Below, piece after piece: positions 4,977 to 38,333 of a stretch of DNA of 64,000 bases; positions within the stretch are counted from its first letter, which is position 1, and every line of letters begins with the position of its first letter. The position numbers and the translations under genes are program-made. This DNA comes from Sphingomonadales bacterium (GTDB taxonomy: Bacteria; Pseudomonadota; Alphaproteobacteria; Sphingomonadales; Sphingomonadaceae), in assembly GCA_018334165.1 (NCBI GenBank), contig JAGXTB010000072.1, positions 1 through 64,000 on the forward strand. The letters are read 5' to 3'. The notes under the pieces were generated by a model, which searched no databases, had not been told where the DNA came from, and saw only the letters and a list, made by a program, of their open reading frames with translations.

Positions 4977-5161
4977 CCAACGACCAGATCAAGGCGCACA
5001 CGATCGACTTCGCCATCAAAATGGCCAACGACGGTGCCGAGCCGGCCGACCAGCTGACGGCCGTCGCGTTGCTGATCCAGTGCAGCTTAAAGGCCGTAAC
5101 GCCTTTGCAACGGACGAAGATCGCCAGCATTTACTTCGACACGATCAGGGCAAACTTGTGA
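4973..5161 (+). CDS. small hypothetical protein
   Basis: ORF overlapping its neighbours by 4 nt. Confidence 0.55.
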   Translation: MTNDQIKAHTIDFAIKMANDGAEPADQLTAVALLIQCSLKAVTPLQRTKIASIYFDTIRANL

Positions 5162-10112: not shown

Positions 10113-10934
10113 ATGGCCTCTCCGCAAACCGAAAACGGCTACTTCAAAGTCGCCAACGAACTAGCCGACGCGATATTCCTTTTCCCATTCAGCGGCCCGC
10201 AGTTGCGGCTCGTGATTTGGGTAATGCGATACTCCTACGGCTGGCGGCGTAAGGAAACGCAGTCCATCACTCTCGACGGATTGACGTCGATCACCACCAT
10301 CCCGCGTTCCACCCTCAGTTGGACGATTCAGCAACTGGTGGGCAGCGGCGTACTGGTGCGGAGCAAGGACTTGACCTACCGCCTCAACAAGAACTACGAG
10401 GAGTGGATCGTGACCGGATCCGACATGCTACCGCTTAGGTCCAACCCATTGGATATCCAACCCATTGGAATAGATTCCAACCCATTGGACCTACAGCGTC
10501 CCCCTATAAGGAACTTAAAGACAATTAGTAAAGACAAAGGTGGACACGAACGCCCAACGGCTATTTTCAGCCCCCCCTCTCTTTCAGCGGTCAAAGCTTA
10601 CTGCACGGAACGGAAAAGCGTGGTGGACCCCGACAAGTTCTTCCACCACTTCGAGGCGAACGGCTGGTACATGGGCCGCACGAAGATGACCAACTGGAAG
10701 TCCGCCGTCTGCTACTGGGAGCGCACGCAGTACCCCGGCAACGGCCGCACCGCAGTCCTCGATGGAAAGGTCTGTCCGATCTGCGACAAGAACCAGATGG
10801 AGAAGGGCGCGACCGTCTGCGTATCCTGCGCCCGATGCAAGAAGTGCGGCGAGAGTACCCCCAACTTAAAGATCGGCAAGCGGCCGGACGGGACCAAGAC
10901 GGCTTGGTGCCTCCGCTGCGTTAAAAACAAATGA
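10113..10934 (+). CDS. phage replication protein O-like initiator with C-terminal zinc ribbon
   Basis: ENGYFKVANELADAIFLFPFSGPQLRLVIWVMRYSYGWRRKETQSITLDGLTSITTIPRSTLSWTIQQLVGSGVLV matches lambda-O N-terminal pattern; iterons inside the gene; C-terminal Cys clusters. Confidence 0.85.
   Translation: MASPQTENGYFKVANELADAIFLFPFSGPQLRLVIWVMRYSYGWRRKETQSITLDGLTSITTIPRSTLSWTIQQLVGSGVLVRSKDLTYRLNKNYEEWIVTGSDMLPLRSNPLDIQPIGIDSNPLDLQRPPIRNLKTISKDKGGHERPTAIFSPPSLSAVKAYCTERKSVVDPDKFFHHFEANGWYMGRTKMTNWKSAVCYWERTQYPGNGRTAVLDGKVCPICDKNQMEKGATVCVSCARCKKCGESTPNLKIGKRPDGTKTAWCLRCVKNK
10440..10536 (+). repeat. putative replication origin oriA: three TCCAACCCATTGGA iterons plus 37-bp AT-rich element
   Basis: Iterons 10440-10453, 10456-10469, 10476-10489; CCCCCTATAAGGAACTTAAAGACAATTAGTAAAGACA at 10500-10536. 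Confidence 0.75.
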
Positions 10935-11254: not shown

Positions 11255-11611
11255 ATGAAGTTGACCATCCACGTGAAGCCGCTGTCGATCAACGACGCGT
11301 ACCGCGGCGCCCACTACCCGACGAAGGAAAAGACGCAGTACGAGACGGCCCTGCGCTACGCGCTTCCGAACGTGCGCGTGGCGCCGGGCCCGTACTACCG
11401 GATCGCCTTCGACTTCCACCTGGTCAACTTCGCGCTCACGGACTACGACAATCTCATCAAGATCACGCAGGACTGCCTCGTCAAGCGCGGCATTATGACC
11501 GACGACCGCCTGATAGTCGACGCACGTATCCGTAAGTTTAAAGCCGACAAGGACCGCATCGAGATCGACCTGCAGCCCGCCGCCGACGCTTTGGAGCCAA
11601 ACCTAATATGA
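11255..11611 (+). CDS. rusA: RusA-family Holliday junction resolvase
   Basis: LTDYDNLIKITQDCLVKRGIMTDDRLI. Confidence 0.85.
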   Translation: MKLTIHVKPLSINDAYRGAHYPTKEKTQYETALRYALPNVRVAPGPYYRIAFDFHLVNFALTDYDNLIKITQDCLVKRGIMTDDRLIVDARIRKFKADKDRIEIDLQPAADALEPNLI

Positions 11612-13050
11612 AAAATGAAGCCCCCGAAACCGTCCAGGCCATACGCGCCAAAGCGGCACCGTACAACCCACGCACGATCACGCCGGCGCAGGAAAAGATG
11701 TTGGCCGCAGCCATGACCGAGTTCGGCGATCTTGGCGGTCTGGTGGTCAACGTCAAGACCGGCCGCGTTGTTGGCGGCCACCAGCGGCTGAAGCAGCTCG
11801 ATCCGTCCTGGCCTGTCGTTAAAAAATCCTACACGGACAAGACCGGAACCGTCGCGCTAGGCTACGTCGAAACGCCCCGAGGCCGGTGGGCATACCGCGA
11901 GGTCGACTGGCCCGAGGCCAAGGAAAAGGCGGCGAACATCGCGGCGAACAAGCACGGCGGCGCGTTCGACATTCCGAAGCTCAAGGACATCCTTGTTGAA
12001 ATTCAGGCCGCCGAGATACCGCTCGAGCTCACCGGATTCGACGCCGACGACCTGGCCGAGATGCTCGCCGAGGAAGGCGCGGCGATTCCGGAGAACGTGG
12101 ACGACTTACCCCCCCCCATGGCGCAATCTAAGACCAAGCGCGGCGACGTCTGGATATGCGGCGACCACCGGGTCATGTGCGGCGACAGCACGAGCGCCGC
12201 CGACATCTCACGCCTGATGGGAGACGACCGGGCCGCGCTATACTTCTCCGACCCGCCATACGGCGTGTCCTACGAGGGCGGAGGCTTCGACGTGATCAAG
12301 GGCGACCACAAGCGCGACGACGACCTCTACAACCTGGTCACCGGCGCGCTGAAGCAGGCCGTCGCCCACACGACGCCCGGCGCCGCCTTCTACATCTGGC
12401 ACGCCAGCAGCACGCGCCGCGAGTTCGAGGACGCCATGCGCGACGCCGGCCTAATCGAGAAGCAGTACCTGATCTGGGTTAAGAACTCGATCGTCCTCGG
12501 CCACGCCGACTACCACTGGACCCACGAGCCGTGCTTCTACGCCGGCAAGGAAGGCCAGAAGGTCGCCTTTCACGGCGACCGCACCCAGTCGACCGTCTGG
12601 CGCGCCACGCTCAAGAAGCGGGACGGCCTGGCGACCACCCTCGGCCAAGCCCTCCTGCTGACCGACGGCAAGGGCGGGCAGATCGCTTTGACCCCGCGCA
12701 TGCCCAAGGGCAAGAAAACACGCACGGCGAGGCTCGTAGAGGGCCAGACGATGCGGATCGAGATACCCAGCAACAGTGTGGACGTTCTCGAGGTCGGCCG
12801 CGACCTGGACGGCTACAAGCATCCGACCCAGAAGCCGGTAGCCCTGTCGATGGTGGCGATCGCCAACAGCACGAAGCCGGGCGAGATCGTCCTCGACACG
12901 TTCAGCGGAAGCGGATCCACCCTGCTCGGGTGCGAGGCGACCGGCCGGCGCGGCCGGGTGATGGACCTCGACCCCACGTACGCCTGGGTTGCGGTGGAGC
13001 GGTGGCAGGACCTGACGGGCCGCAAAGCGTTTGTCGAAAAAGGAGCTTAA
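11608..13050 (+). CDS. ParB-like nuclease domain fused to N4/N6 DNA methyltransferase
   Basis: N-terminal VVNVKTGRVVGGHQRLKQL; FSDPPYGVSYEG; VLDTFSGSGSTLLGCEATGRRGRVMDLDP. Confidence 0.9.
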   Translation: MKNEAPETVQAIRAKAAPYNPRTITPAQEKMLAAAMTEFGDLGGLVVNVKTGRVVGGHQRLKQLDPSWPVVKKSYTDKTGTVALGYVETPRGRWAYREVDWPEAKEKAANIAANKHGGAFDIPKLKDILVEIQAAEIPLELTGFDADDLAEMLAEEGAAIPENVDDLPPPMAQSKTKRGDVWICGDHRVMCGDSTSAADISRLMGDDRAALYFSDPPYGVSYEGGGFDVIKGDHKRDDDLYNLVTGALKQAVAHTTPGAAFYIWHASSTRREFEDAMRDAGLIEKQYLIWVKNSIVLGHADYHWTHEPCFYAGKEGQKVAFHGDRTQSTVWRATLKKRDGLATTLGQALLLTDGKGGQIALTPRMPKGKKTRTARLVEGQTMRIEIPSNSVDVLEVGRDLDGYKHPTQKPVALSMVAIANSTKPGEIVLDTFSGSGSTLLGCEATGRRGRVMDLDPTYAWVAVERWQDLTGRKAFVEKGA

Positions 13051-20994: not shown

Positions 20995-21645
20995 ATGCCG
21001 AGGAAGAAATCGGGCGAGGGAATCCAACAATACGAGGCCTTCGAGACCTGGTTCTGGATGCACCCGCGCTCGTTCGATAAGTTGGCGGAAGGCTTGAAAG
21101 TCACCTCCTCGATCGTGCGCGTCTGGCACGCAAAATATCGGTGGGAGGAACGCGCCGAGGAACGCGAGAAAAAGATCAAGACAGACCTCGCCAACAAGAA
21201 CGACGCCGAGGCGGTCAAGCAGCGCTCCAACATCATCAACGTGATGCAGGCCACCATGGCGCGCTACGCCGCCCGCCTGCTCAAAGACCCTGCGGTGCGC
21301 GACCAGCACGGCGTCACGCAGTACGAGCCGACTGCGGCCGACGCGGTCCGCGCCGCCCAGTTGCAGATCGTATTGGGAGGCGGGGCCACGAGCCGCACCG
21401 ACATCACGATGGGCTCAGGCTTCACCGACGCCCTGCTCGCCATGGTGGGTGCCACCCTGCGCCGCGAGCTTCCGACCTGTTGCCCGAACTGCCGCGCCGA
21501 CCTGGGCGGCCTGCCGGGGCGCATCAGCATGAAGCTCATCGAAGCCGCCTCCGGCCTGGCGGCCGACGCCGCCGCCGCCGTTCCGGTGCCGTTAGCGGGC
21601 TCCGTGGGCCGCGCCGAGAACCCCGACGAAGCGGGGCCGGAGTGA
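20995..21645 (+). CDS. putative terminase small subunit
   Basis: N-terminal HTH-like KLAEGLKVTSSIVRVWHAKYRWEERAEEREKKI; two genes upstream of TerL. Confidence 0.6.
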   Translation: MPRKKSGEGIQQYEAFETWFWMHPRSFDKLAEGLKVTSSIVRVWHAKYRWEERAEEREKKIKTDLANKNDAEAVKQRSNIINVMQATMARYAARLLKDPAVRDQHGVTQYEPTAADAVRAAQLQIVLGGGATSRTDITMGSGFTDALLAMVGATLRRELPTCCPNCRADLGGLPGRISMKLIEAASGLAADAAAAVPVPLAGSVGRAENPDEAGPE

Positions 21646-21845
21646 ACTCCCTGCGCGACCCGAAGGCGCTCGCCGGCAACGACCAGGACGGAACGATCTG
21701 GTGCGGCCTCTGCGCCTGGACGAGCAAGGCGCGCACGGTGGAGCTCGTAGAACACCGCGTCCAACAGCACCTGGCCGCAGCGCACGGCCGGCGCGCGTTG
21801 TCGCGGTTCGACCACGACCTGCAGAAAAAGGTGATGCTCCCGTGA
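21642..21845 (+). CDS. small hypothetical protein
   Basis: GTG start coupled to the upstream stop; IWCGLCAWTS...HRVQQHLAAAH finger-like. Confidence 0.5.
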   Translation: MNSLRDPKALAGNDQDGTIWCGLCAWTSKARTVELVEHRVQQHLAAAHGRRALSRFDHDLQKKVMLP

Positions 21846-23404
21846 TCCTGCAAAGCGCCGCGCCCGCCTTCGACCAAGCCGCCATCGCCCGCCTCCCGTT
21901 TGCCGCCCTGGTCGCCAGCAGCATGCGCACCCTGGCGCGCGGCATCGACTCCGAGCACGTGCGCCTGCGCGACTTCTTCCGGCCCGCCTGGGGCATCGTC
22001 AACCCCGGCGTGCAGTACGTCCCGAACTGGCACAACGACCTGATCGCCGAGCATCTCGAGGCCGTCCACCTGGGCCAGATCAAGCTCCTCGACATCGAGA
22101 TGCCCCCCCGCATGGGCAAGAGCTTCCACGTCTCGGTCGCCTTCCCGGCCTGGGAGTGGACCGAGGACGCCGGCGAGCGCTTCCTGTTCTCGTCGTACAA
22201 CCAGAAGCTCTGCAACCGCCACAGCCTCGACCGCCGCGCCGTGATCTCGAGCGCGTGGTACCAGAAGAAGTGGGGCGAGTTCGTCACCCTAGCCCCCGAC
22301 CAGAACCTCAAAACGGAGTTTCAAAACACCGCGCGCGGGCACATGATCACGGCCCCGTTCGGCTCGAGCGGCACGGGGTCCGGCGGCCGGCGCCTGGTCA
22401 TCGACGACCCGCTCAACCCGAAGCAGGCGAGCTCGAAGGTGCAGCGCGAGGCCGCCCACGACTACTACCGCGGCACCCTCTCCACCCGCCTCGACGACGA
22501 GCACCACAGCGCGATCATCATGGTCGCCCAGCGCACCGACGTCGACGACCTGCAGGGCAAGTTCGTCAACGAGAAGGACGGCTGGACGGTCCTGAAGATC
22601 CCGATCCAGGCCAAGAGCCGCACGGTGTACATCTTCCCGATTTCCAAGACGGAGAAGGTCTACGAGGCCGGCGAACTGCTCTGCCCGGCCCGCAAGTCGC
22701 AGAAGGGCGTCGACGCCCTGCGCAAGGCACTCAGCAACCGCGCGGCCGCGCAGCTGGACCAGGAACCGGAAGCGGCGAGCGGAAACCTGTTCCCGCGCAA
22801 CAGCTGGAAGAAGATGACGGAGATGCCCACGCCGCTATTCATCCTTAACGCCTGGGACACCGCCGTCAAGGAGCGCGAGGAAAACGACCCGAGCGCCGGC
22901 CTTTGCATCGTCCTCCACGAGGGTGGCTTCCATTTCTGCAAAGGCGTCACGCACGGGCATATGCGCTTCTCGGAATTGAAACTCGCCGTGCGCGAGAGGT
23001 TTGACCTCGACCGCCCCGACGCCGTCTTCATCGAGGACAAGTCCAGCGGCCAGCAACTGATCCAGGAGTTCCAAGACGACCGCCAGGTGAACATGCCGCT
23101 CGTCGTGTTCAACCCCGACGACGAGGGGCCCGAGGCCGAGGCTTGGAAAGCCTGGTTCAAGATGGACAAGTACGCGCGCGCCCAACTCGTTCAACCCTTG
23201 TGGGCCGCTGGCCGAGTGTCCTATGATCCGAACATGGAAGGCGCCGCCGACATGATCGCCGAGTTTGCGTCTTTTCCCAAAGGCCTTAAGGACCGCGTCG
23301 ACGCCGGCGTCCACGGCGTGCGCTACTTGTCCCGCCTCAACCTGAACGCCCCGCCGACCGAGGAGGTCGAGCAGGCCGACGGCGACATCACCGACGGACT
23401 CTAG
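21842..23404 (+). CDS. terL: terminase large subunit
   Basis: LLDIEMPPRMGKSFHVSVAFPAWEW; AVFIEDKSSGQQLIQEFQDD nuclease region. Confidence 0.9.
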   Translation: MILQSAAPAFDQAAIARLPFAALVASSMRTLARGIDSEHVRLRDFFRPAWGIVNPGVQYVPNWHNDLIAEHLEAVHLGQIKLLDIEMPPRMGKSFHVSVAFPAWEWTEDAGERFLFSSYNQKLCNRHSLDRRAVISSAWYQKKWGEFVTLAPDQNLKTEFQNTARGHMITAPFGSSGTGSGGRRLVIDDPLNPKQASSKVQREAAHDYYRGTLSTRLDDEHHSAIIMVAQRTDVDDLQGKFVNEKDGWTVLKIPIQAKSRTVYIFPISKTEKVYEAGELLCPARKSQKGVDALRKALSNRAAAQLDQEPEAASGNLFPRNSWKKMTEMPTPLFILNAWDTAVKEREENDPSAGLCIVLHEGGFHFCKGVTHGHMRFSELKLAVRERFDLDRPDAVFIEDKSSGQQLIQEFQDDRQVNMPLVVFNPDDEGPEAEAWKAWFKMDKYARAQLVQPLWAAGRVSYDPNMEGAADMIAEFASFPKGLKDRVDAGVHGVRYLSRLNLNAPPTEEVEQADGDITDGL

Positions 23405-23419
23405 CGAGGAGAACCGATT

Positions 23420-25138
23420 ATGCCCCCTAAGAAAACGACGTCCGCTGCTCCGAAGCCTGACGACAACGCGCCAGTTCTCGAGGAGTACGGTTCGGTGCTC
23501 AACAGCATCCGCGACGAGCTCGCTGCACAGCCGTGGGCCGTGGCGACGTCGAACAGCGATGAGTTCGAGGAAGGCGCGCCGCGCAGGACGCTCGTCGAGA
23601 CCATCCCCGGCGGCGGCGTGAAGGTGACGGAGGGCGGACAAACGAAGATCATCAAGGCCGGGAAGAAGCTGACGGAGGCTGAGGCCGGTGACACCTTCAA
23701 CCGCACGCTCTACAGCGAGGGAGGCTTGTCCGAAGGATACCTGACCAACGAAGCGCGCGTCGTCGCCATGCGCCAGTCGCTGATCATGTACCGCGACGAC
23801 CCCATGTATCGCGCCATCATTGACGGCTTCACATATTTCGTCATCGGCAAGGGCCTGAAGTTTAAGGCGCGCGACGAGAACCCGGCGGTGCAGGAACACC
23901 TCGACGCCTTCTGGAAGGAGTCTAAGATGGACGGCCGCGACGCCGACATCGTCCGCCGCTTCTTCAAGTACGGCGAGGTCCTCATCCGCTACTTCAAGAC
24001 CGGTGCCGGCGGCGGCCTGGCCAAGACGCCGCGCGTGCGCCTCGTTCCGTTCTGGCGCATCGACACCATGAGCGTCGACGCCGTGGATCCAGAGACGCTC
24101 AAAGGATTTAAGCTGAACAACTACAACGTCGAAGGCTTCAGCAGCGGTCCCGCCGAGGAGCTGGCCGCCGACGACGTACAATATCTTGTACATTCCGAGA
24201 ACAGCGGCGGCCGCGGCGAGCCGCCGTTTCTCGTCGCCATGCGAGCCTGCAAGTGGTACGCCGACTTCATCCTCAACCGCGTCACCCTCAACCGCTACCG
24301 TACCGCCTTCGTGCTGTTCAAAAAGATCACGGCTGCAGGGCCGAGTCGCGTGAGCACGGTGGACAACGCGGCGAGCAACGCGACGGCAACCGGCAAGAAC
24401 GGCCAGCCGCAGAAGCGCCTGCCGAAGCCGGGCACGGTGGTCGTCCATAACAGCGGCATCGAGTACGAGTGGAAGTCCCCGCAAACCGGCGCGATCGACG
24501 GCCAGGCCGACGGCAAGATGATCAAATCATACATCGCCGCCGGCGCGATGGTCCCCGAGTTCCTGCTCGGCGACGCCTCCCAGGCCAACCAGGACAACAG
24601 CCTCGTCGCCGACAACCCGTTCGTGCGCAAGGTCGAGTTTTATCAGGACTACTTCGAGGACGTCTTCGGCGAGATGTTCAAGCGCGTCATCGAGCAGGGC
24701 ATCGCCACCGGCAAGATCCCGAAGACAAGCACCGAGACCGTGCTCACTGAGGCCGGGGCCATGAGACGCACGACCGCGCGCGCGTTGCGCAAGATCGGAT
24801 TCGCCGAGGCGGCCGCCGCGATTGAGAAGCCCGGCAAGACCACAAAGGCTGTGCCTACCAGCACGGCTGTCGACATTGACTGGCCGACCCTCATCCAGAA
24901 GGACGCGCTCAAGGAAGCGCAGACGCTGGCGATCGACGCCAGCCTGGGCCTCGTGTCTGTCGAGACGATGCGCGGCAAGCGCGGCTACGACGACGAGGTC
25001 GAGGAGAAACGCCTCGAGCGCGACCGCGAACAGGGCCAGGACGCCATGGCCGCGGCTCGGGACGAGGAGATCGACGCCGAGGACGGCGACGAGCAGAACC
25101 CGCCCGCGAAAACCAAAAAAGACAAGGGAGCCGAATAA
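23420..25138 (+). CDS. portal protein
   Basis: Position after TerL; DDPMYRAIIDGFTYFVIGKGLKF; RFFKYGEVLIRYFK; EFLLGDASQANQDNSLVADNPFVRKVEFYQDYFEDVFGEMFKRVIEQ. Confidence 0.85.
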   Translation: MPPKKTTSAAPKPDDNAPVLEEYGSVLNSIRDELAAQPWAVATSNSDEFEEGAPRRTLVETIPGGGVKVTEGGQTKIIKAGKKLTEAEAGDTFNRTLYSEGGLSEGYLTNEARVVAMRQSLIMYRDDPMYRAIIDGFTYFVIGKGLKFKARDENPAVQEHLDAFWKESKMDGRDADIVRRFFKYGEVLIRYFKTGAGGGLAKTPRVRLVPFWRIDTMSVDAVDPETLKGFKLNNYNVEGFSSGPAEELAADDVQYLVHSENSGGRGEPPFLVAMRACKWYADFILNRVTLNRYRTAFVLFKKITAAGPSRVSTVDNAASNATATGKNGQPQKRLPKPGTVVVHNSGIEYEWKSPQTGAIDGQADGKMIKSYIAAGAMVPEFLLGDASQANQDNSLVADNPFVRKVEFYQDYFEDVFGEMFKRVIEQGIATGKIPKTSTETVLTEAGAMRRTTARALRKIGFAEAAAAIEKPGKTTKAVPTSTAVDIDWPTLIQKDALKEAQTLAIDASLGLVSVETMRGKRGYDDEVEEKRLERDREQGQDAMAAARDEEIDAEDGDEQNPPAKTKKDKGAE

Positions 25139-26392: not shown

Positions 26393-26619
26393 ATCCCCCA
26401 GAGGATAGTCGCTTCCAGTACGCGCACGGCCTGGTCTGGGACCGCGAGACCGAGCAGGGCGTGCCGCGCGCCAAGAACAACCCGCCGTCCTGCGACCGCG
26501 TCGCGGCGCTTTCGTGCTGGACGCCGAAGCCAAGGGTGATGCACGTCTACCGCCTACCAAACGGCCAGCACGTCTGGCAATGGGAGCCGCAGCCTCCCGG
26601 CGGTCAATATGCCCGCTGA
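26389..26619 (+). CDS. small hypothetical protein
   Basis: ORF. Confidence 0.45.
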   Translation: MNPPEDSRFQYAHGLVWDRETEQGVPRAKNNPPSCDRVAALSCWTPKPRVMHVYRLPNGQHVWQWEPQPPGGQYAR

Positions 26620-27772
26620 TCTGCCAGACGACGCGATAAGAATCCGCAACCTCTACCCGGTCATGAAGTGCGACCGCTCGGTGTGGAAGCGGATCATTGC
26701 TCTCTGTCGGAAAGGCGACGAAGCCAGCGTGTCCGCGGCCGAGGACCTGGCCAAAGCTTGCACCTCGAGGACTACGCGAACGCGCGCGCTACACATCGGC
26801 GCTCTCCGCAAGCGCGTTATGCGCCGTGCCTTCCTAGTCCAGCAGAAGCGCGATGAGCATGTCACGGCGGACGCGCTGCGCACGCTGGCCGACCGCGCGG
26901 ACACGATCTTAAACCGATACGGGAAAACCGGCGCCATTCCTTCGAACCGATATCCGTCGATCGTAAGAGACCTATCCGATCGGAACAAAGAGGCCTACGC
27001 GACCATTGCTCAGGGCTTCCAGGCCGCTCTCCGGGCCGCCGTCAAAGTGGGCCTCTCCCACTCCATGCAGAACGCGGAGGCCGTTGTAGCCCACGCCAGA
27101 GGCAAAACCACTGAGCAGGAATGGGCTGACCTGGAGCTTGTGTACCGATCCGGCTGCTACGTCTACGTTCCGCTTGACGAGGCCGACCCTCTGAACCAGC
27201 AACTGACCTACGCGCCGAGCAGCAACGTTTTCAAAAAGCTGTTCAAAGGCGCGCTCAAGGACACGATGACGGCAGGGCTGTTCGGCAAGAGCAAGCGCGT
27301 TTCGAGCAGGGTCTGGGACCTGCGCGGCCAGAACATGGCGCAGATGAAGCGACTCGTGTCCGGCGGCATCGCCCGCGGCGAAGACCCGGCCACGATCAGC
27401 CGCGCCATTCGGGGCCTACTCGTCCAACCGAAGACCCTGCGCGGCGCGGCGCGCGCTGATGCGACGCCAGGCGCTGGTTCATACAGGTCAGCCTACGCCA
27501 ACGCCATGCGCCTCACGCGCACCGAGACCAACCGCGCCTACATCCTATCCGACACGATCTTCGCCGACAAGAAGGGCTGGAATCTGATCTGGCAGGTCAG
27601 CGCCGGCCAGCGCGAGGAGGACGAGTGCGACGACTTGGGTGGCAAGGAGATGACCCCGGAGGAGTTCGCTGACAATTATCCGCAACATCCGCAGTGCTTG
27701 TGCTATTCAATTCTCGCGCCGAAAACGGAGTTCGATAGCCCGCTTTCGGACACGCCGGCGGACCCCGAATGA
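26609..27772 (+). CDS. SPP1 gp7/Mu F-type head morphogenesis (minor capsid) protein
   Basis: YANAMRLTRTETNRAYILSDTIFADKKGWNLIWQVSAGQREEDECDDLGGKEMTPEEFADNYPQHPQCLCYSIL. Confidence 0.85.
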   Translation: MPADLPDDAIRIRNLYPVMKCDRSVWKRIIALCRKGDEASVSAAEDLAKACTSRTTRTRALHIGALRKRVMRRAFLVQQKRDEHVTADALRTLADRADTILNRYGKTGAIPSNRYPSIVRDLSDRNKEAYATIAQGFQAALRAAVKVGLSHSMQNAEAVVAHARGKTTEQEWADLELVYRSGCYVYVPLDEADPLNQQLTYAPSSNVFKKLFKGALKDTMTAGLFGKSKRVSSRVWDLRGQNMAQMKRLVSGGIARGEDPATISRAIRGLLVQPKTLRGAARADATPGAGSYRSAYANAMRLTRTETNRAYILSDTIFADKKGWNLIWQVSAGQREEDECDDLGGKEMTPEEFADNYPQHPQCLCYSILAPKTEFDSPLSDTPADPE

Positions 27773-27960
27773 TGCGTCAAAAAGCAGTCAGGTCTAATGG
27801 ATTGGAAGTCGCATATACGCGAGTTCCAATGGGTTGGATATCCAATGGGTTGGACAAACAGTCCAATGGGTTGGATATTTCGCCGCCCCCTATAAGGTAC
27901 TTAAAGACAATTTGTAAAGACATGGTAGACAACCGCCCCCGCTTTTTAGAAAAAAGATGA
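27769..27960 (+). CDS. short ORF spanning the second origin-like element
   Basis: SNGLD...PPPIRYLKTICKDMVDNRP resembles the iteron-encoded SNPLD...PPIRNLKTISKDK segment of the O-like protein; may be non-coding. Confidence 0.3.
   Translation: MMRQKAVRSNGLEVAYTRVPMGWISNGLDKQSNGLDISPPPIRYLKTICKDMVDNRPRFLEKR
27793..27922 (+). repeat. second origin-like element oriB: three inverted iterons, one degenerate copy, 37-bp AT-rich element
   Basis: TCCAATGGGTTGGA at 27825-27838, 27841-27854, 27862-27875; degenerate TCTAATGGATTGGA 27793-27806; CCCCCTATAAGGTACTTAAAGACAATTTGTAAAGACA at 27886-27922. Confidence 0.75.
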
Positions 27961-28124
27961 ACAACAGCATATGCCAAGTCAGCGGTAAGATCATGCACGC
28001 GACCGCAGCGGCTGCGCACCGCCATATTCCGCGGAGAGGCGGCAAGCGAGAACGCGGCACGGCCTACCGTTGCGGCTACTGCCACCACTGGCATACGACC
28101 TCGAGCATGACATCTCGATCATGA
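27957..28124 (+). CDS. small Cys/His protein (55 aa)
   Basis: MNNSICQVSGKIMHATAAAAHRHIPRRGGKRERGTAYRCGYCHHWHTTSSMTSRS. Confidence 0.45.
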   Translation: MNNSICQVSGKIMHATAAAAHRHIPRRGGKRERGTAYRCGYCHHWHTTSSMTSRS

Positions 28125-28402: not shown

Positions 28403-29398
28403 ATGCGTGCGCTGATCACCGGAGCAAACGGATTCGTTGGTTCCCACCTCATTGAGCATCTGATTTCAATCGGCGCTGAAGTCCACGGCACGATCAGATC
28501 ATTCCGCAGTGACCTCTCCAACCTGGCGCACATCGATCCCGTCACGTATACGATTCATTTTTGTGACATCACCGACGAAGTGGCGATCACTGATCTCGTC
28601 GCGCGATTGATGCCCACGCACATCTTTCACCTGGCCGCGCACTCCTACGTGCCGACGTCTTGGGACGCGCCGCACGCAACGATCGACGCGAACATCAAAG
28701 GGACGCTAAATCTTCTTGAGGCGGTGCGCCGCAGCGCACCTGGGGCGCGAGTCCAGGTGGCCGGGTCCAGCGAGGAGTATGGCCGCGTCGAAGCGCACGA
28801 AGTACCCATCGCGGAATCGCAGCCGCTGCGCCCGCTCTCGCCTTACGGCGTGTCGAAGGTCGGGGCTGAGATGTTCGCGCTGCAATACGCCGCCAGCTAC
28901 AATTTACATGTGATCGTCACACGGTCGTTTAACCACACCGGCCCGCGCCGCGGGAAGGTCTTCGCCGAAAGCGACTGGGCGAGGCAGGTCGCGCTCATCG
29001 AGGCAGGCTTGCAAGAGCCTGCCATTATGCACGGAAATCTTGACGCGATCCGCGACTACACCGACGTCCGCGACATTGTGCGCGGCTACGTCATGGCGAT
29101 CGACAACGGACAGACCGGTGAGGTCTACAATCTCTGCTCAGGATCCGATGCGTCCCCGACCATGCGCCAAGTTCTCGACAACCTCTGCGCGCTCGCGCAC
29201 GTCAATGTGACGAAGGTGCAGGACCCGAAGCGCATGCGTCCGTCGGACGTTGCGCGTTTGGTCGGCAACGGGATGAAAGCCCGTCTTGCTTTTGGATGGG
29301 AGCCGAGCATTCCGCTTGCGCGAACTTTGGCCGACCTGCTACAGTATTGGCGATCGACACTGCACGCCACAGGGTCGAAGATTCCGGAGCCTGCTTAG
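28403..29398 (+). CDS. NAD-dependent nucleotide-sugar epimerase/dehydratase (GDP-mannose 4,6-dehydratase-like)
   Basis: MRALITGANGFVGSHL; SSEEYGR; SPYGVSKVGAEM; TRSFNHTGPRR; DYTDVRDIVRGYV. Confidence 0.9.
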   Translation: MRALITGANGFVGSHLIEHLISIGAEVHGTIRSFRSDLSNLAHIDPVTYTIHFCDITDEVAITDLVARLMPTHIFHLAAHSYVPTSWDAPHATIDANIKGTLNLLEAVRRSAPGARVQVAGSSEEYGRVEAHEVPIAESQPLRPLSPYGVSKVGAEMFALQYAASYNLHVIVTRSFNHTGPRRGKVFAESDWARQVALIEAGLQEPAIMHGNLDAIRDYTDVRDIVRGYVMAIDNGQTGEVYNLCSGSDASPTMRQVLDNLCALAHVNVTKVQDPKRMRPSDVARLVGNGMKARLAFGWEPSIPLARTLADLLQYWRSTLHATGSKIPEPA

Positions 29399-29405
29399 GA
29401 GCCCT

Positions 29406-30650
29406 GTGGCCAAACCTTTAGTCAAGACGTCGAAGAACAAGCTCGCCGACCAAGGCGTCTTCACGCTTTTCTTTGGCCTCAGCGAAGCGAAGACCGACGA
29501 CTCCGCCGGCGACGACGGCAAGCCGAAGCACGAGATCGTGTTGACCGCTCTGCAGGAAGGGCGAGGAAACGAGCGCGACCGCCGCTACTACACGCGCGAA
29601 GCGGTCGTCGGCGCGGAAGGCGTCTTCAAGGCGCGCCGTAAACTTTTCGTCAACCACCTCGAGGAGGGCAAGCCGTCGTCCTCCGAGGACCTGCGCAACT
29701 GGTGTGCCACGCTCAAAGAGACCTGGATCGAAAACCTCCCGAGCGGGAAGGTCGCGCGCAAGGTGCGCCTTAAGATTCATGAGGAGTGGCTGTGGACGCG
29801 CTGCCTTGAGGCCCCCGAGGAAATCGCGCTGTCCATCGAAGGCAGCGGCGCCGGCAAAGAGGCCGTTGTTGAAGGCGAGACCTACATGGTCATCGAGAAG
29901 ATTTGGTCGCTGAACGCCACGAAGTTCGTGACTTATCCCGGCAACGCAAAGATGGGGGCCGACCTCGTCGAAAGCGCCACCGAGGAATCTCCGGAGGAAA
30001 CACCCATGGACCTGAAAGCTTTGACCGAAGCGCTCCTGAAGGAGCACCGCCCGGACCTCGTCGCCGCGATTGTCGCGAGCGTTGAGGCGTCGTACAAGGC
30101 CAAGCTGATCGAGGCCGAGGCCAAGGCGACGAAGATCGCCGAAGCTGCACCGACCCCCGCCACCTTCGCGGCCGCCGTTGCCGCCGAGGTCAAGGGCGTG
30201 AAAGATTCCTTCAACGCCTCTCTCGACGAGATGCGCAAGAAGCTCGACGAGTCCGACCGCAAGCTCGACGCCGCCGAGGTCAAGACCCGCCTGGCCGAGA
30301 AGAAAGCCCTCATCGAGGCAAAGCTCAAGGAGTCCAAGCTGGCCCCCGAGGCGAAGACCGAGCGCTTCCTGGCTCGCTGCTACGCCGTCGCAGAGCGCAA
30401 AGAAGGCGACAAGGTCATCACCGTCGCCGAGCAGGTGGACGCCGAGATAGCCGAGCAGCTCAAGCTCACCACGTCCGAGTTCGGCGCGGTGCGCACCAGC
30501 GTCTCTGGCGAGACCAAGATCGCCGAGTCTGAAGTACTGACGGTTGAGGAGGAGCAAATCCTTTTCAACAACCGGGTGCTCGGACACGTTCTCACGCTCG
30601 AGCAGTTCCGCGAGCAGAAGAAGAAGGACGCCGCCGCAAAGACCGCGTAA
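29406..30650 (+). CDS. putative capsid maturation protease fused to scaffold-like C-terminus
   Basis: Position upstream of capsid genes; RGNERDRRYYTREAV...KLFVNHLE, then a charged coiled-coil C-terminus. Confidence 0.6.
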   Translation: MAKPLVKTSKNKLADQGVFTLFFGLSEAKTDDSAGDDGKPKHEIVLTALQEGRGNERDRRYYTREAVVGAEGVFKARRKLFVNHLEEGKPSSSEDLRNWCATLKETWIENLPSGKVARKVRLKIHEEWLWTRCLEAPEEIALSIEGSGAGKEAVVEGETYMVIEKIWSLNATKFVTYPGNAKMGADLVESATEESPEETPMDLKALTEALLKEHRPDLVAAIVASVEASYKAKLIEAEAKATKIAEAAPTPATFAAAVAAEVKGVKDSFNASLDEMRKKLDESDRKLDAAEVKTRLAEKKALIEAKLKESKLAPEAKTERFLARCYAVAERKEGDKVITVAEQVDAEIAEQLKLTTSEFGAVRTSVSGETKIAESEVLTVEEEQILFNNRVLGHVLTLEQFREQKKKDAAAKTA

Positions 30651-30727
30651 AGATCAATCCGCAGCTGCAAGGCGTCCCCCCCGAGTCACGCCGCCGGGGA
30701 CATCTGAAGTACGGAGGAATCTGATTT

Positions 30728-31675
30728 ATGGCCCAGAAGAAAGAGAACCGCGCCTGCTCGGCGGACAGCATCCAACTCATCCCCAAGGCGTCGACCGACA
30801 TCTCGTCGGGCGACGTCGTGGTCATGGCTCGCAAGAACGACCCGATCAGCCTCTCGGCTCTCGGGCCGGCCGGGCGCGTCAGCCCGATCGCCGCGGCCCG
30901 CCAGGGCCAGTGGTGCGTCGGCGTGGCCGATAACGTCTTCACCTCGGCCGTGGTCGGCGCGACGGACTACGCCACCCCGGACGCGGACAACAAGATCAAC
31001 GTCCTGCGCGAGGGGCAGTTCTACCTAGCCCTCTCCACTGCGGCTGGCAAGGCCGGCGACGCGGTCGTCTACGCGTCCGGCGCGTCCGGCGCGCAGCTGT
31101 TCGCGATCGACAACATGCGCCAGGGCTATGCGGTGGCGCGCGTGGTCAGCGACTTCTCGGGCGCCTCGTCCGGCGACCTGCAGCTGTGCGAGTTGATCCT
31201 CAAGCCCACCGGCGGGCCTGACGTCGCGCACTGGCTCGAGAACCGAGTGGTCAACGGCTGCGAGGTCTTGCTGCACGCCGCGCCCGGATCGCAGGTTAAG
31301 GTCGGCCACAACACCGGCACGGTCGTCCATAAGAACCTCGTGCTGATCCAGAACGCCATCAAGTCGATCGCCCAGGACGTGACGCTCGCGTTCGGCGGCG
31401 TCGGCTCTGCAGCGGCGTCCACCATCCGGTTCAAGTGGGTCGTGGCGCGCTCCGGATCATTCGCCATCCGCTCCGGATCCGGAAGCAAAGCCGCGTTGGC
31501 CTCCTACACGGTGGCCGGCGTGACGGCGGGCCTGCTCGCGCCTGTCACGATGACTGCCGGGGAGATTCCGATCGCCCTGCTGATCCAGTTCAGCGCGGCA
31601 ACCCAGTCGGCGGCGCGCATCAAGAACATCCGCGGCCTCGGCGTCGTGCCCCGCGTCGGTTCTTGGGGCATCTAA
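30728..31675 (+). CDS. putative capsid decoration/head protein
   Basis: Ala/Gly/Val-rich beta-type N-terminus GDAVVYASGASGAQLFAIDNMRQGYAVARVVSDFSGASSGDLQLCELIL; between protease and capsid. Confidence 0.5.
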   Translation: MAQKKENRACSADSIQLIPKASTDISSGDVVVMARKNDPISLSALGPAGRVSPIAAARQGQWCVGVADNVFTSAVVGATDYATPDADNKINVLREGQFYLALSTAAGKAGDAVVYASGASGAQLFAIDNMRQGYAVARVVSDFSGASSGDLQLCELILKPTGGPDVAHWLENRVVNGCEVLLHAAPGSQVKVGHNTGTVVHKNLVLIQNAIKSIAQDVTLAFGGVGSAAASTIRFKWVVARSGSFAIRSGSGSKAALASYTVAGVTAGLLAPVTMTAGEIPIALLIQFSAATQSAARIKNIRGLGVVPRVGSWGI

Positions 31676-31688
31676 GCATTACCCGTAA

Positions 31689-31720
31689 CTGGGGGCGGCG
31701 GGTTATCCTGCCGCCCCCAG
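31689..31720 (+). terminator. 14-bp stem, TTAT-loop hairpin after the decoration-like gene
   Basis: CTGGGGGCGGCGGG-TTAT-CCTGCCGCCCCCAG (one G-T pair); no long U-tract. Confidence 0.6.
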
Positions 31721-31759
31721 GTCTTCGTATCGACGATGCGACGAAAAGGAAAAACGGAA

Positions 31760-32746
31760 ATGTCTGATCTCTCCGAGAAGGCGAAGCAGGTGTCCTCGTT
31801 CATGGACTCGTGCGCCAACGAAAAGACGATCGAGGCGCGCGCCGATTCTTGGCTCGCCAACGTGACGGCCAATCGGCCTCACTTCCTCACCCCCAACCCG
31901 CCCCTGCTCGGCCTGACCGCCTTCGTGGTCGCGGCCGGCCCCTCTCTCCGCAAGAACGTCAAGGCGCTCAAGACCATCGGCCGCATGGGCGTCATCGTAT
32001 GCGTGGACGCCGCCTACCGATATCTGGTTGAGCAGGGCGTCACGCCCGACTACTGCGCCACGATTGACGCCGACACGCGCATGGTAACGATGATTGAAGG
32101 AGTGGATACGTCCAAGACTACTCTTGTCGCGCAAGCCTCCGCGAGCCCGGCCCTCATCAACGCGTGGCGCGGCCCGAAGTATTTCCTGCGCGCCACCGGC
32201 GGCTCTAGGGAGCTCGACGACAAGCTGCACGCGGCGCACCGAATCGTCAAGGCAAAGCGCGCCATGCTCCCCGGCGAGGAGATCGACCCTGTCGCAGACG
32301 TCGAGGTGGTGTTTGCCGGCCTCAACGACGCGCTCGCCTGCGGCGGCAACGTGACGTCCTACGCGCATGTCTTCGCCCTCTCGCTGCTCCGGGCCACGAA
32401 GGTAGTCTTCGTCGGCGCCGACTACGCGTGGCTCGACGACAACGACTTCTACGCCGGCGGCGCCCACCAGAAGCTAGCCGCAGAGCGCATGTCCGGCGAA
32501 CAGATTCTCTCCCACAGCGGCCTCGGCGGCGCAGAGAACGCGACGAACTTCACTCTCTTTCACCTGAAGTCGTGGCACGAGGAGATCGCCTCCGCGCACC
32601 CCGGCCACTGCGTCAACGCGACCGAGGGCGGGATCTTGGGCGTCGGCAAGAAAGGCAACACCCTCGTTGGCTGGGAACACTTGTCTCTGGCGGACGCGGT
32701 CGCGAAGTATGCGCCCACCTGCGCGCGGGAAGCTGTCACGGCATGA
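31760..32746 (+). CDS. DUF115/MptE-like, Maf-type putative glycosyltransferase (copy 1)
   Basis: LTAFVVAAGPSLRKNVKALK...VIVCVDAAYRYLVEQGVTPDYCATIDAD; KVVFVGADYAWLDDNDFYAGG. Confidence 0.8.
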   Translation: MSDLSEKAKQVSSFMDSCANEKTIEARADSWLANVTANRPHFLTPNPPLLGLTAFVVAAGPSLRKNVKALKTIGRMGVIVCVDAAYRYLVEQGVTPDYCATIDADTRMVTMIEGVDTSKTTLVAQASASPALINAWRGPKYFLRATGGSRELDDKLHAAHRIVKAKRAMLPGEEIDPVADVEVVFAGLNDALACGGNVTSYAHVFALSLLRATKVVFVGADYAWLDDNDFYAGGAHQKLAAERMSGEQILSHSGLGGAENATNFTLFHLKSWHEEIASAHPGHCVNATEGGILGVGKKGNTLVGWEHLSLADAVAKYAPTCAREAVTA

Positions 32747-33594
32747 GCCCCATGATCGCCCCTGACGTAAAAGAGGTCCTGGCCAATCGTGGCCACGCAT
32801 CTGCTGCGGCCCACAAGGACCGCTGGTCGCGTCACGCCGCGGCGAACAAGGGCCGAATTGTCTTCCAGGTGTCGCGCCTCTGGTGCGACGTCAACCCGAA
32901 GACCGGCGTGCTGATCGCCGCCGGCCCGAGCCTCAAGGACAGCCTCGCGGAGCTCAAGGCGATCGATAGGAACACGCACGAGATCGTGTGCGTCGACATG
33001 GCGCTCAAGTTCCTCCTCGACAACGGCTTGGTGCCCGACTACGTGATCTGCGCCGACGCCTCCGAGGAGATCGCGCGGACGCTGGTCGCGGCGCCTCCCG
33101 AGGTCGCGCTCTTGCTGAACGTCGTGGTCCACCCTGACACCGCGAAGGACTGGGTCGGCGACATCTTCTGGTTCTGCATGATGTCGAACTACCGCGACAA
33201 GGAAGCCAACGACTGGATGCAACACGACCACGCGAAGAAATCCGGAGTCTCCTCGTTTCTTGTCCCCGGCGGCAACGTCTCCAGCCTCGGCGTCAGCTTC
33301 CTCGGCTCCGTCCGGGCCGTTGCGAAGATACTGCTCTACGGACACGATTTTTGTTGGACCGACGACGCCGAGTTCTACGCGGGCGGCGTCCAGAAGGACC
33401 TGGCGGATATTCGCATCAAGACCGAAGCCGACGCAGGCACGGTCATGACTGTGCCCGACAGCCGCGGTAAGCCGGTGAAGACGACGGGGAGCCTATTGGC
33501 GTTCGCGTCCTGGTACTCCGACATCGCCCGCACCATGCCCGGTCTGCTCGAGTCTCGCACGCCGACGACAATATTATCCCTCGGAGGAAACTGA
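32743..33594 (+). CDS. DUF115/MptE-like, Maf-type putative glycosyltransferase (copy 2)
   Basis: GVLIAAGPSLKDSLAELK...EIVCVDMALKFLLDNGLVPDYVICADAS; ILLYGHDFCWTDDAEFYAGG. Confidence 0.8.
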   Translation: MSPMIAPDVKEVLANRGHASAAAHKDRWSRHAAANKGRIVFQVSRLWCDVNPKTGVLIAAGPSLKDSLAELKAIDRNTHEIVCVDMALKFLLDNGLVPDYVICADASEEIARTLVAAPPEVALLLNVVVHPDTAKDWVGDIFWFCMMSNYRDKEANDWMQHDHAKKSGVSSFLVPGGNVSSLGVSFLGSVRAVAKILLYGHDFCWTDDAEFYAGGVQKDLADIRIKTEADAGTVMTVPDSRGKPVKTTGSLLAFASWYSDIARTMPGLLESRTPTTILSLGGN

Positions 33595-33595
33595 T

Positions 33596-34606
33596 ATGAC
33601 GATTCAAGAGATGGAAGCCGTAATCAAGAACGGCGACGGCAAGGCCCTCCGCGAGGCCATGACCCGCTCCGACTTCGCTGCCTTCATGGCCAAAGGGCTC
33701 AAGGGCACGATCATCGACGCGTACTCCCGCGCGCAGGCGCAGACGAACTTCGAGCAGCTCACCGTCGACGAGACGAGCGAGTCCAACGAGGAGACCTACC
33801 CGACGATGGGCGCGACCGAGCTGCCCCGCAAGGTGCTCGAGGGCGAGAAGTTCAAGACCCTGAACCCCGGCTCGCCGGACACCGTCAAGGTCACGAACTT
33901 CAAGTACGGCGGCATCATCGAGCTGACCAGCGAGGCCTCCGAAGACGACCAGACCCCCGGCAAGACCCTGTCCAAGCAGGCCGCGGCGCTCGGCTCCGGC
34001 CACGCCCGCTACAAGGACAAGGCCTTCTTCTCCATCCTGACGGACAATCCCCCGATCTACGACGGCGGGGACCTGTTCGCGCTCGACCACCCCGGCTACA
34101 CTGGCGGCGCGGCGCGCGGCAGCAACGACAACATCTACACCGCCGTGACGCTCTCGGCTAACGCCCTGGCGACGGTGCTCGGCAAGATCGCGATCTGGGA
34201 AGGCGCCGATGCCGACCAGGACCTCGACATCATGGTCGACGCGCTCGTCGTGCCCGTCACGCTGCAGCCGGTCGCCTTCGGCTTGACGCGCGCGGACCTG
34301 CTGCCCGTCGGCTACGCTGCCGGCGCGCTCGGGCCGGCGACGAACAACGGCCTCATGCCCAACGCCTTGGGCCTCAAGAAGATCGGCGTCATCGCCAGCC
34401 ACCGCCTGGACCGCGCGTCCTTGACGGACTGGTACGTGAAGACGAACTTCCCCGGCCTGATGCACCAGAAGCGCAAGGGTCTCGAGATCATGCAGGAAGG
34501 CCTCGGCACCGGGATGCACTTCGAGAACGGGATGCACCGCACCCGCACCGAGGAACGCTTCGGCGCCAAGATTGTGAACTGGCGCGGCTTCGTCCTCGTC
34601 AGCTAA
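33596..34606 (+). CDS. major capsid protein (Mu gpT-type)
   Basis: Position; NFEQLTVDETSESNEETYPTMGATELPRK...GDLFALDHPGY; C-terminal RTRTEERFGAKIVNWRGFVLVS. Confidence 0.8.
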   Translation: MTIQEMEAVIKNGDGKALREAMTRSDFAAFMAKGLKGTIIDAYSRAQAQTNFEQLTVDETSESNEETYPTMGATELPRKVLEGEKFKTLNPGSPDTVKVTNFKYGGIIELTSEASEDDQTPGKTLSKQAAALGSGHARYKDKAFFSILTDNPPIYDGGDLFALDHPGYTGGAARGSNDNIYTAVTLSANALATVLGKIAIWEGADADQDLDIMVDALVVPVTLQPVAFGLTRADLLPVGYAAGALGPATNNGLMPNALGLKKIGVIASHRLDRASLTDWYVKTNFPGLMHQKRKGLEIMQEGLGTGMHFENGMHRTRTEERFGAKIVNWRGFVLVS

Positions 34607-35178: not shown

Positions 35179-35580
35179 ATGCGCGCGACGCGCTACATCG
35201 GCATCGCCCGGAAGGTTCACGTTAAGGACCTGCAGCCCGGCATGGCGCTCATCGACCCCATCGTGGGTTTGCGAGGCAAGGTCCTTGTCTGCGCCGGCGA
35301 GGTCCTATCCGTGAAGCACGTCGCCCAGCTTAAGAAGGTCATCGAGCGGCCCGGCGTCGGTTGCCTGCTGAACTACACCAGAGAGGTGTGGGCGCAGGCG
35401 ACCGACGCGTCCGGCGACGAGAAGCCGGCCTGCGAGACCAATCCTTACGAGGCTTTCAGCGTGCAGCGCGTGTGGAAGAAGGGCATGAGCGCGGCCGGCC
35501 CGCAGGCGGCGGCACAACCCTCGAGCGCGCGGAAGGTTTACCGTATGGTGGACGGCCAGATGACGGAGGTCGACGCGTGA
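35179..35580 (+). CDS. paralogue of the preceding gene
   Basis: RKVHVKDLQPGMALIDPIVGLRGKVLVCAGEVLSVKHVAQLKKVIERPG. Confidence 0.5.
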   Translation: MRATRYIGIARKVHVKDLQPGMALIDPIVGLRGKVLVCAGEVLSVKHVAQLKKVIERPGVGCLLNYTREVWAQATDASGDEKPACETNPYEAFSVQRVWKKGMSAAGPQAAAQPSSARKVYRMVDGQMTEVDA

Positions 35581-35939
35581 AGACGCCCAAGGTGAATGGA
35601 TTCCGACCGTCGTATATGCGTCGCGCCCTGCAGGACTACTCCACGGCCAGCCAGGAGGCCGAGCGCGTCACCGCAGCGAAGGCCTTCGTGGAGATGTGGA
35701 TCGCGGACGCGGTCGCCGGCGACGCCGCCCTGGGCCGCACCGGCGCCTGCTTTGTCGTCTCCCCGCAGGAGGCCGTGGACCAGGCCACGCGCAAAGCCCT
35801 GCTGGTCCGCGGCATCGTCTGCTACGCCGGCAGCGGCAACTACTTCCAAGCGGATCTGACCGGTGACACGCCGCGCGTGATCCAGCGCCGGCCGCTGGCC
35901 CAGCGCTTCGTCCAACTCGCCCCAGGAGGCAACGCCTAA
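35577..35939 (+). CDS. hypothetical protein
   Basis: GTG start coupled to the upstream stop. Confidence 0.55.
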   Translation: MKTPKVNGFRPSYMRRALQDYSTASQEAERVTAAKAFVEMWIADAVAGDAALGRTGACFVVSPQEAVDQATRKALLVRGIVCYAGSGNYFQADLTGDTPRVIQRRPLAQRFVQLAPGGNA

Positions 35940-35940
35940 A

Positions 35941-36696
35941 ATGCGCTATTTCGTCATCCCAGCACGCGCCGGCAGCAAAGCAATCCTCGACAAGAACCTG
36001 GTCGACCTAGGTGGCCATCCTCTCGTCGCCTGGACGATCCACGCCGCCAAGGAAGCTGCCAAGTCCTACGACGGCGCGCGCGTCTACGTCACGTCCGAGG
36101 ACCGCAAGATTCTCGACGTGGCCGAGTCCTACGGCGCGGTCCCGCACCTGCGCCCGCCCCACCTCGCCGACGACCAGGCGTCCATGGTTGGCGTCCTCCG
36201 CGACTTCTTCCGGATGCACGAAGACGCCCACGAGGTCGTCCTGCTCTACCCCACCTGCCCGTTCCGAATGGCCTCAACGATCAAGAACGCGATCGCGGCC
36301 TTCGAGTCCGGCCCGCTGCACGCCGAGCACGAAAGCCTGATGAGCGTGACCGCCTTCAACGGCCGGCCCTACGGCGGGGTCATGATCGTCAACGGAAAGC
36401 TCGAGTACGCGGAGTCGGCCGAGGCGTTCTACCGCAAGCAGGACACCCCAAAGCTCTACCACGCCAACGGGGCCATTTTCATCCTGCGCCGCGGCGTATT
36501 GGACAAGCTGAACACCCAGCTGTTCTGCAAGGAGACAGTGCCTTACGAGATATACGGCATTGAACCGCTGGACATCGACACCCCCTTCGACCTCGAAGTG
36601 GCCCGCGCTTGGGTCGCCTCTGGCCGCGCCAAGCTGGCCTTAAAGGACACCTTCACCGTGGCTGAAGGCATTGAAACGATGGGGCACGCTCCTTGA
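35941..36696 (+). CDS. acylneuraminate/nonulosonate cytidylyltransferase (NeuA/PseF/LegF-like)
   Basis: MRYFVIPARAGSKAILDKNLVDLGGHPLVAWTI; YVTSEDRKILDVAESYGA; LLYPTCPFR; YEIYGIEPLDIDTPFDLEVA. Confidence 0.85.
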   Translation: MRYFVIPARAGSKAILDKNLVDLGGHPLVAWTIHAAKEAAKSYDGARVYVTSEDRKILDVAESYGAVPHLRPPHLADDQASMVGVLRDFFRMHEDAHEVVLLYPTCPFRMASTIKNAIAAFESGPLHAEHESLMSVTAFNGRPYGGVMIVNGKLEYAESAEAFYRKQDTPKLYHANGAIFILRRGVLDKLNTQLFCKETVPYEIYGIEPLDIDTPFDLEVARAWVASGRAKLALKDTFTVAEGIETMGHAP

Positions 36697-38333
36697 CCAA
36701 TACAGGCCAACTTAATCACTTACCTCAAGTCGTTAAGTCGGCCATCAGTTCGAGCCTGCGCGGCCTCAGAGCGATGATTATAAACATGCCCCTGCGCGAG
36801 GACGCCCCTCCCAACTGCGCCCCGCTGGGGCCAGCCCTGCTCGCCGCACGACTCCTGCAGCACGAGGCCGACTGCTCCATTGTGGACCTCAACGCATACC
36901 GGGTAGGACCTTTTCAGCGACACTTGACAGGCGGCGAAGCCATGGGGCTGATCGTCCGGACGGCCCACAAGCACGGCTCGCCGCACCTGATCGGTATGGG
37001 CGGCATGGTCACGACGCTACGCTGGCAGCGCATGCTGGCGAAGGAACTGCGCCGGATATTTCCCGACGCCATGCTCGTCAGCGGCGCCGGCCTGGCGACC
37101 GAGTTCCGCGCCGGATTGTTCAACTGGATCCCTGAACTGGATGCCATTGTTCATAGCGAAGCAGACGACGTCATCCTGCAGGTAGGTCAAGATGCGCTTC
37201 TATCCCACAAGATCGGGCGAGGCTTGCTGAATCTGCTCGAGCCAAAAGTGTACGCAGGCGACCGCCCTGCCGACCTCGACGCGCTCCCGCTCCCGGCCTG
37301 GGACCTGCTCGCCGCCGACGTCGACGGCTTCCCGGTCCTCGAGACGTACATCAAGAACCAAATCTGGGGCCTCGAGGCGAACAACTCGAGCGCCACGCCG
37401 TTCAAGATGACGCGATCGCTCAACACCGTTTCTTCGCGCGGGTGCCCGTACGCCTGCAAGTTCTGCTTCCGCGGCGCGCAGGGGGAGCGTGAGTACGGCG
37501 TACGTACAGCCGCGAGCCTGACCCATGAGGCGATGTACCTGCACGAGCGCTACGGCATCGACTTCCTCGGCGTCTTGGACGACAACTGCTTGGTCCAAGC
37601 CAAGCGCCTCGAGGACATGGTGCCGACCCTCGGCCGCTTCTGCCGCGACAGCGGCATGCGCTGGGGCACGCACGGACGCCTGGATGAAGCCGCGGACCTG
37701 CGACCGAACGGCTCCGGCGGCTTCGTGCGAGCCGCGCGCCGGCGCACTCAGGCCCTCGCGGAGAGCGGGTGCGTCTACGTTGGATTCGGCGCTGAGAGCG
37801 CCAGCCCTGCGGTCCTCCTTGCCATGGGCAAGGGAGGCTTCATGCTGGCCAACGGGACCGAAAACGTCGGCGGCTACGACCTGCCCAAGACCATGCTCGA
37901 GGGCTACCGCAACACCGTTGAGGCCGGCCTGCACGGCAACTGCACCTGGATCATGGGCTACCCCGGCGAGGGCCTGCGCGAACTGCAGCACAGCGTCGCC
38001 TTCATCGCCTGGCAGAAGACGCTCCTGAACAACCCGGCCGCCGTCAACAGCCGCATGTTCACCGCGACCGCCTACCCCGGCACGGAGATGTTCAAGAACC
38101 AGAAGGTGCAGGCGCGCCTCGCGCGCGGCTTCGGCCTGTCCTTCGACGCCGCCGGCGAGCCGATCTGCGACAACGCCCTCCTCGCCTACTGCCTTGAGCT
38201 CGACGACGCCACAAAGGTCCTCAAGGACAAGAACGGCGACGACGTCTACTACGGTGACATGACCATGGCGCAGTTCGAGAAGTGCCGCAACCTGGTAGAC
38301 GCCGGCAAGACCGAGGAGATCCTGTCCCTATGA
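36693..38333 (+). CDS. B12-binding radical SAM protein
   Basis: SSRGCPYACKFCFRG (CX3CX2C); N-terminal B12-binding-like APLGPALLAARLLQHEADCSIVDLNAY; HSEADDVI. Confidence 0.9.
   Translation: MTNTGQLNHLPQVVKSAISSSLRGLRAMIINMPLREDAPPNCAPLGPALLAARLLQHEADCSIVDLNAYRVGPFQRHLTGGEAMGLIVRTAHKHGSPHLIGMGGMVTTLRWQRMLAKELRRIFPDAMLVSGAGLATEFRAGLFNWIPELDAIVHSEADDVILQVGQDALLSHKIGRGLLNLLEPKVYAGDRPADLDALPLPAWDLLAADVDGFPVLETYIKNQIWGLEANNSSATPFKMTRSLNTVSSRGCPYACKFCFRGAQGEREYGVRTAASLTHEAMYLHERYGIDFLGVLDDNCLVQAKRLEDMVPTLGRFCRDSGMRWGTHGRLDEAADLRPNGSGGFVRAARRRTQALAESGCVYVGFGAESASPAVLLAMGKGGFMLANGTENVGGYDLPKTMLEGYRNTVEAGLHGNCTWIMGYPGEGLRELQHSVAFIAWQKTLLNNPAAVNSRMFTATAYPGTEMFKNQKVQARLARGFGLSFDAAGEPICDNALLAYCLELDDATKVLKDKNGDDVYYGDMTMAQFEKCRNLVDAGKTEEILSL

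Follow-up and report, generated by a model that had tools for sequence, protein, structure and literature searches.

The phage genome examined here carries, besides an origin of replication inside its O-type initiator gene (oriA), a second origin-like element (oriB) located 17.4 kb away in the head gene cluster. We put the probability at about 0.6 that oriB is a second, selectively maintained origin element that would be bound by the O protein and would act as a late origin and/or replication fork barrier similar to oriR of phage SPP1. The window (the whole stretch of DNA that was analysed) represents 64 kb of a 65,649-bp contig, the ends of which overlap exactly over 58 bp, indicating that the phage genome (~65.6 kb) is circular and complete. 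The genome has a GC content of 62%, and all of the scanned genes have the same orientation. The same virus is represented in IMG/VR by a contig of 65,646 bp, which was identical over the compared stretches; the oriB/oriA pair is known from this one virus. The order of the elements is the O gene with oriA, a RusA-like resolvase, TerS, TerL, portal, a MuF-like minor head protein, oriB, moron-like genes and the major head protein (Table 1). Searches with tblastn matched the minor head protein to MuF-like proteins of other phages and the major head protein to Roseobacter phage head proteins.

Table 1. Positions in the window of the two origin elements and of the genes that define their context
Feature	Position	Strand	Basis or remark
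O-type replication initiator gene (273 aa), contains oriA	10113..10934	+	Phage_rep_O N-terminal domain PF04492, E=2.4e-15, residues 5-98
oriA iteron array, 3 x TCCAACCCATTGGA on + (10440, 10456, 10476)	10440..10489	-	Site search
oriA AT block CCCCCTATAAGGAACTTAAAGACAATTAGTAAAGACA, putative unwinding element	10500..10536	+	Alignment with oriB; helix instability
RusA-like Holliday-junction resolvase	11255..11611	+	phrog_140, E=2e-10; two genes downstream of O
TerS	20995-21645
TerL	21701-23404
Portal	23420-25138
MuF-like minor head protein	26609..27772	+	phrog_1657, E=4e-17; phrog_115, E=9e-14; directly upstream of oriB
63-aa ORF spanning oriB	27769..27960	+	ATGA overlap with both neighbouring ORFs
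Degenerate fourth oriB iteron TCTAATGGATTGGA	27793..27806	+	2/14 mismatches; 32 bp (2x16) before first exact site
oriB iteron array, 3 exact TCCAATGGGTTGGA (27825-27838, 27841-27854, 27862-27875)	27825..27875	+
oriB AT block, 35/37 identical to oriA	27886..27922	+	10 bp after last iteron, as in oriA
Major head protein	33596..34606	+	phrog_371 / phrog_133; ends moron interval behind oriB

The oriA array lies entirely within the O gene, which also matched the O-like replication initiation proteins of the phrog collection. The presence of a PF04492 initiator, of tandem inverted-repeat iterons inside the O gene and of an adjacent AT-rich region identified oriA, as judged from its sequence, as an origin of the lambda (O-dependent) type. 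In lambda, the iterons are imperfect inverted repeats in the middle of O and are followed by an AT-rich tract (PMC7466680), and this arrangement was shared by the present phage, as was an O-family N-terminal domain. The lambda iterons are 19 bp long, whereas those detected here are 14 bp long and have the form TCCAA-N4-TTGGA. Further differences are the full second copy of the origin elsewhere in this genome and the P-type loader, none having been recognised among the scanned genes. A sequence search of the PDB with the O protein gave no match. Two DNA methyltransferase genes (6845-8299 and 11608-13050, the second with a ParB-like N-terminal part) were observed, accompanied by a ThyX gene and a dATP/dGTP diphosphohydrolase gene; a possible role of this set is DNA modification or control of the nucleotide pool.

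The sequence-only reading had described three exact iterons in oriB, a degenerate fourth site, a 10-bp gap, a 37-bp block identical to oriA at 35 positions and a 16-bp spacing of the first two iterons in both arrays, and every one of these features was recovered. A search for the 14-mer with ≤2 mismatches detected 7 matches against 0.24 expected, and 0 of 100 shuffled sequences reached 7. The complete genome circle contained exactly six perfect copies of TCCAA-N4-TTGGA, and each of the two elements accounted for three of them. The next best match to the block anywhere in the window was 20-21/37. No DnaA boxes were detected near oriB. A near-palindrome with other half-sites (TCGCATATACGCGA, 27809-27822) was observed between the degenerate iteron of oriB and its first exact one, precisely in phase with the 16-bp spacing.

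A distinct difference was detected between the parts of the two elements that are kept and those that are not. The half-sites were identical at 30/30 positions and the AT block at 35/37 (together 65/67), whereas the site centres were identical at 0/12 positions, the 10-bp gap at 3/10 (its length being kept), the upstream 40 bp at 7/40 and the downstream 30 bp at 7/30 in ungapped comparison. Comparison of half-sites plus block with centres, gap and flanks (65/67 versus 17/92) gave a Fisher p value of ~8e-26, which is descriptive as the elements were delimited after inspection. The spacing of the third iteron was unequal, at 20 bp in one array and 21 bp in the other. Both differences within the block would alter the linker peptide of the O protein (N to Y and S to C), pointing to a constraint on the DNA. 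Nearest-neighbour energies placed the least stable 100-bp segment of the genome at 27891-27990, in oriB, and the second at 10434-10533, in oriA; part of this signal reflects shared sequence, and the stretch after the oriB block is unshared. Overall, the retention of motifs between scrambled spacers, together with the low helix stability, argued for selection on a DNA function, and a role of oriB at the DNA level is well supported by this contrast between motifs and spacers. The sequence-only reading was thus partly supported: the head cluster does contain another origin-like element, well supported as one selected for a DNA function. Given the same layout in SPP1, a second origin or a switch to late replication is the most plausible identity of this element, with O binding, firing and the switch itself being inferred.

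An alternative is that oriB is a functionless fragment of the O gene, brought by mosaic recombination into the interval that separates packaging from capsid genes, a place prone to the insertion of morons, and kept open as a small ORF. The peptide of the 63-aa ORF (SNGLDISPPPIRYLKTICKD) does resemble the O linker (SNPLDLQRPPIRNLKTISKD), and weak similarity between oriA and oriB continues for ~30 bp beyond the block, with indels. A decaying fragment, however, would not be expected to preserve the half-sites, the block and the length of the gap amid sequence that has otherwise diverged, nor to have three sites that exactly match the iterons of the resident O gene, and we regard a relic as unlikely.

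The orientation of the iterons had been taken as evidence against a simple recent duplication. The 32-bp unit formed by the first two sites and their TA spacer was indeed an exact reverse complement between oriA and oriB, with the AT block in the same orientation in both; the minus strand of oriB reads SNPLDIQPIG, as does the O protein. The iteron is a 5+4+5 palindrome with an asymmetric centre, so that orientation is carried only by the 4-bp centre (CCCA versus TGGG), and the weight of this argument is lower than was proposed since the centres alone are flipped. The flip would be compatible with a symmetric dimer on the iterons, to which the distance of a site from the block would matter but not its polarity.

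The 63-codon ORF, for which no family match was found, shares one ATGA with the MuF stop codon and another with the small ORF that follows; junctions of this type are common in this genome. These overlaps indicated that the array is probably read through in a late operon, and this bears on a transcriptional explanation of oriB, in which a winged-helix O protein would serve as repressor or activator at an operator or promoter of the late moron genes. Such a role would be in keeping with the operator-like palindromic sites, with a TATAAGG in the AT block and with the morons downstream. A promoter scan, however, gave 1 weak match against 0.7 expected, no terminator was detected and the ATGA overlaps of the flanking ORFs suggest read-through of one operon, making this explanation highly improbable.

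The ORF that follows oriB (55 aa, 27957-28124) contains a CxxC...HxxH-like pattern (YRCGYCHHWH) and is possibly a zinc ribbon, with no match to a Pfam family. The interval between the MuF and major head genes (28403-33594) contains a GDP-mannose dehydratase/epimerase-like (nucleotide-sugar epimerase) gene as well as one that is MptE-like (PF01973). Beyond it, at 36693-38333, there is a Radical SAM gene; together these may constitute a sugar-related moron island in the capsid cluster.

Relatives were sought in several collections. Searches of viral contigs with O, MuF and TerL, of genome contigs and 399 genomes of the same phylum with O, of 401 genomes of the same order with MuF and of phages with the DNA of the head region detected only the same virus or distant homologs, and exact block patterns matched in this virus only. 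A loose search of viral contigs for paired palindromes yielded 20 stretches, 18 of them outside this virus, and only one of the contigs, L166, also encoded an O homolog. This protein has 35% amino acid identity with, and is independent of, the O protein of the window. The L166 gene has four copies of TCCAACCCATTGGA in the corresponding region, with TATAAGG and TTAAAG behind them, indicating that iterons and block together form the O-type origin. The distance between TATAAGG and TTAAAG is 2 bases in L166 versus 3 here, placing TATAAGG in another codon phase, which hints at a constraint on DNA rather than on peptide. No second array was present on the L166 contig, the sequence of which stops shortly behind a portal gene belonging to a different class. 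The contig IMGVR_UViG_3300009296_000166 had the same iteron in an O gene but terminase and portal genes of other families (phrog_9 and phrog_12), indicating that phages with unlike head modules exchange the O/ori module. A relative with both the O module and the head module of this phage was absent from the collections searched.

Self-comparison of 14 additional phages that have initiators of the O or DnaD type, of which CBP1, YPHTV-1, SDFMU_Pfc and Jimmer1 were covered for part of their genomes, detected a second copy in one, Porphyromonas phage005b. With one second copy in the whole set, and that one with foreign iterons, possession of two O origins is not typical of phages with this family of initiators. 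The phage005b element (PP754928, L131:30309-30440) consists of four 11-bp CTGACAAACGA repeats followed by 50 bp with 90% identity to its own replication gene. It resembles oriB in being an origin fragment of a replication gene placed between MuF minor capsid and major capsid genes; this is the best support for oriB being a relic, since such fragments do land in that interval. Its iterons, in contrast, do not match the ones in its own replication gene and are similar to iterons in DnaD genes of Listeria phages, suggesting that the fragment may be a relic or an imported origin. The element sits in an island with integrase and antirepressor genes and is possibly the imported origin of a phage satellite.

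The closest parallel to the arrangement of oriA and oriB was found in the Bacillus phage SPP1. In that phage, gene 38 with oriL is located at 35,580-36,350 and gene 1 at 43,884; portal gene 6 is followed by MuF gene 7, which ends at 4730, by gene 8, which starts at 5067, and then by scaffold gene 11 and capsid gene 13, and oriR is in a segment with genes 8-10, ~13 kb from oriL (PMC6316719). These coordinates suggest that oriR is in or beside the gap behind gene 7, which is the position of oriB, and the MuF-like protein of the present phage is the counterpart of SPP1 gp7. Both phages have two distant arrays of direct repeats with an AT-rich unwinding element (PMC6316719, PMC3485210), one in the initiator gene and the other behind a MuF-like gene and ahead of morons and capsid, and they share the gene order initiator with origin, TerS, TerL, portal, MuF, second origin, morons and capsid. 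The two arrays detected here have the same iterons and are placed in the initiator gene and between the minor head and capsid genes, 17.4 kb apart as against ~13 kb in SPP1. The initiator is the origin-binding protein gp38 in SPP1 and a PF04492 O protein here; oriB is embedded in a small ORF and not in a gap between genes, and the present genome has 65.6 kb and 62% GC. Geobacillus phage GBK2 has an O-type gene in the corresponding place (PF04492; 27% identity over 100 aa with the O protein of the present phage), and gp38 is absent from the published list of GBK2-SPP1 homologs.

In a model of SPP1 replication, binding of gp38 to oriR is believed to arrest the fork coming from oriL and to trigger concatemer synthesis (PMC3485210). 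By analogy, O dimers would bind the TCCAA-N4-TTGGA iterons of oriA and start early theta replication, and would also bind oriB behind the MuF gene. Late in infection, either oriB would itself serve as a second origin of replication, or tightly bound O would block at this site the fork started at oriA; a blocked fork could lead to breakage and recombination and thus convert theta replication to the concatemeric replication used for packaging. Binding, melting, firing or blocking, and their timing at oriB are our inference, and sequence does not distinguish firing from blocking. A recombination function such as the RusA-like resolvase would be required for a theta-to-sigma switch, and the recombination genes of this genome comprise the resolvase, an exonuclease and a helicase.

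An extra array need not be an origin, as ectopic copies of ori-lambda in trans arrest lambda replication (PMC4488673). That observation and the identical iterons of oriA and oriB would also suit a copy-control or decoy array, which never fires and instead titrates O or handcuffs with oriA, stopping theta initiation as genomes accumulate. A decoy needs iterons only, yet oriB retains 35/37 positions of the AT block, the 10-bp gap and a strong helix instability; furthermore, its number of sites equals that of oriA, so that free O would at most be halved. We consider a pure decoy improbable, less likely even than a relic, and favour a late origin and/or fork barrier.

How circular phage DNA is switched to the production of concatemers is an open question. 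Searches of the open-access literature did not turn up any phage for which a second O-type array has been described, and SPP1 was the only case found of a two-origin barrier layout. A lambda-O-type phage with the same layout makes the SPP1 model testable in a second system. Tentatively, a late origin or fork barrier behind MuF could be a recurrent position in unrelated phages. It would then have originated on two or more occasions, once with SPP1 gp38 and once with a lambda-O-type protein as initiator, the reason being that concatemer synthesis is started by blocking the fork immediately beyond the packaging genes; were this doubtful proposal true, the SPP1 switch would change from a single case to a general strategy. 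The layout of oriA and oriB is a reason to inspect the sequence behind MuF genes of phages in general for second arrays, and it suggests that a second origin used for a late-replication switch may be more widespread than has been thought.
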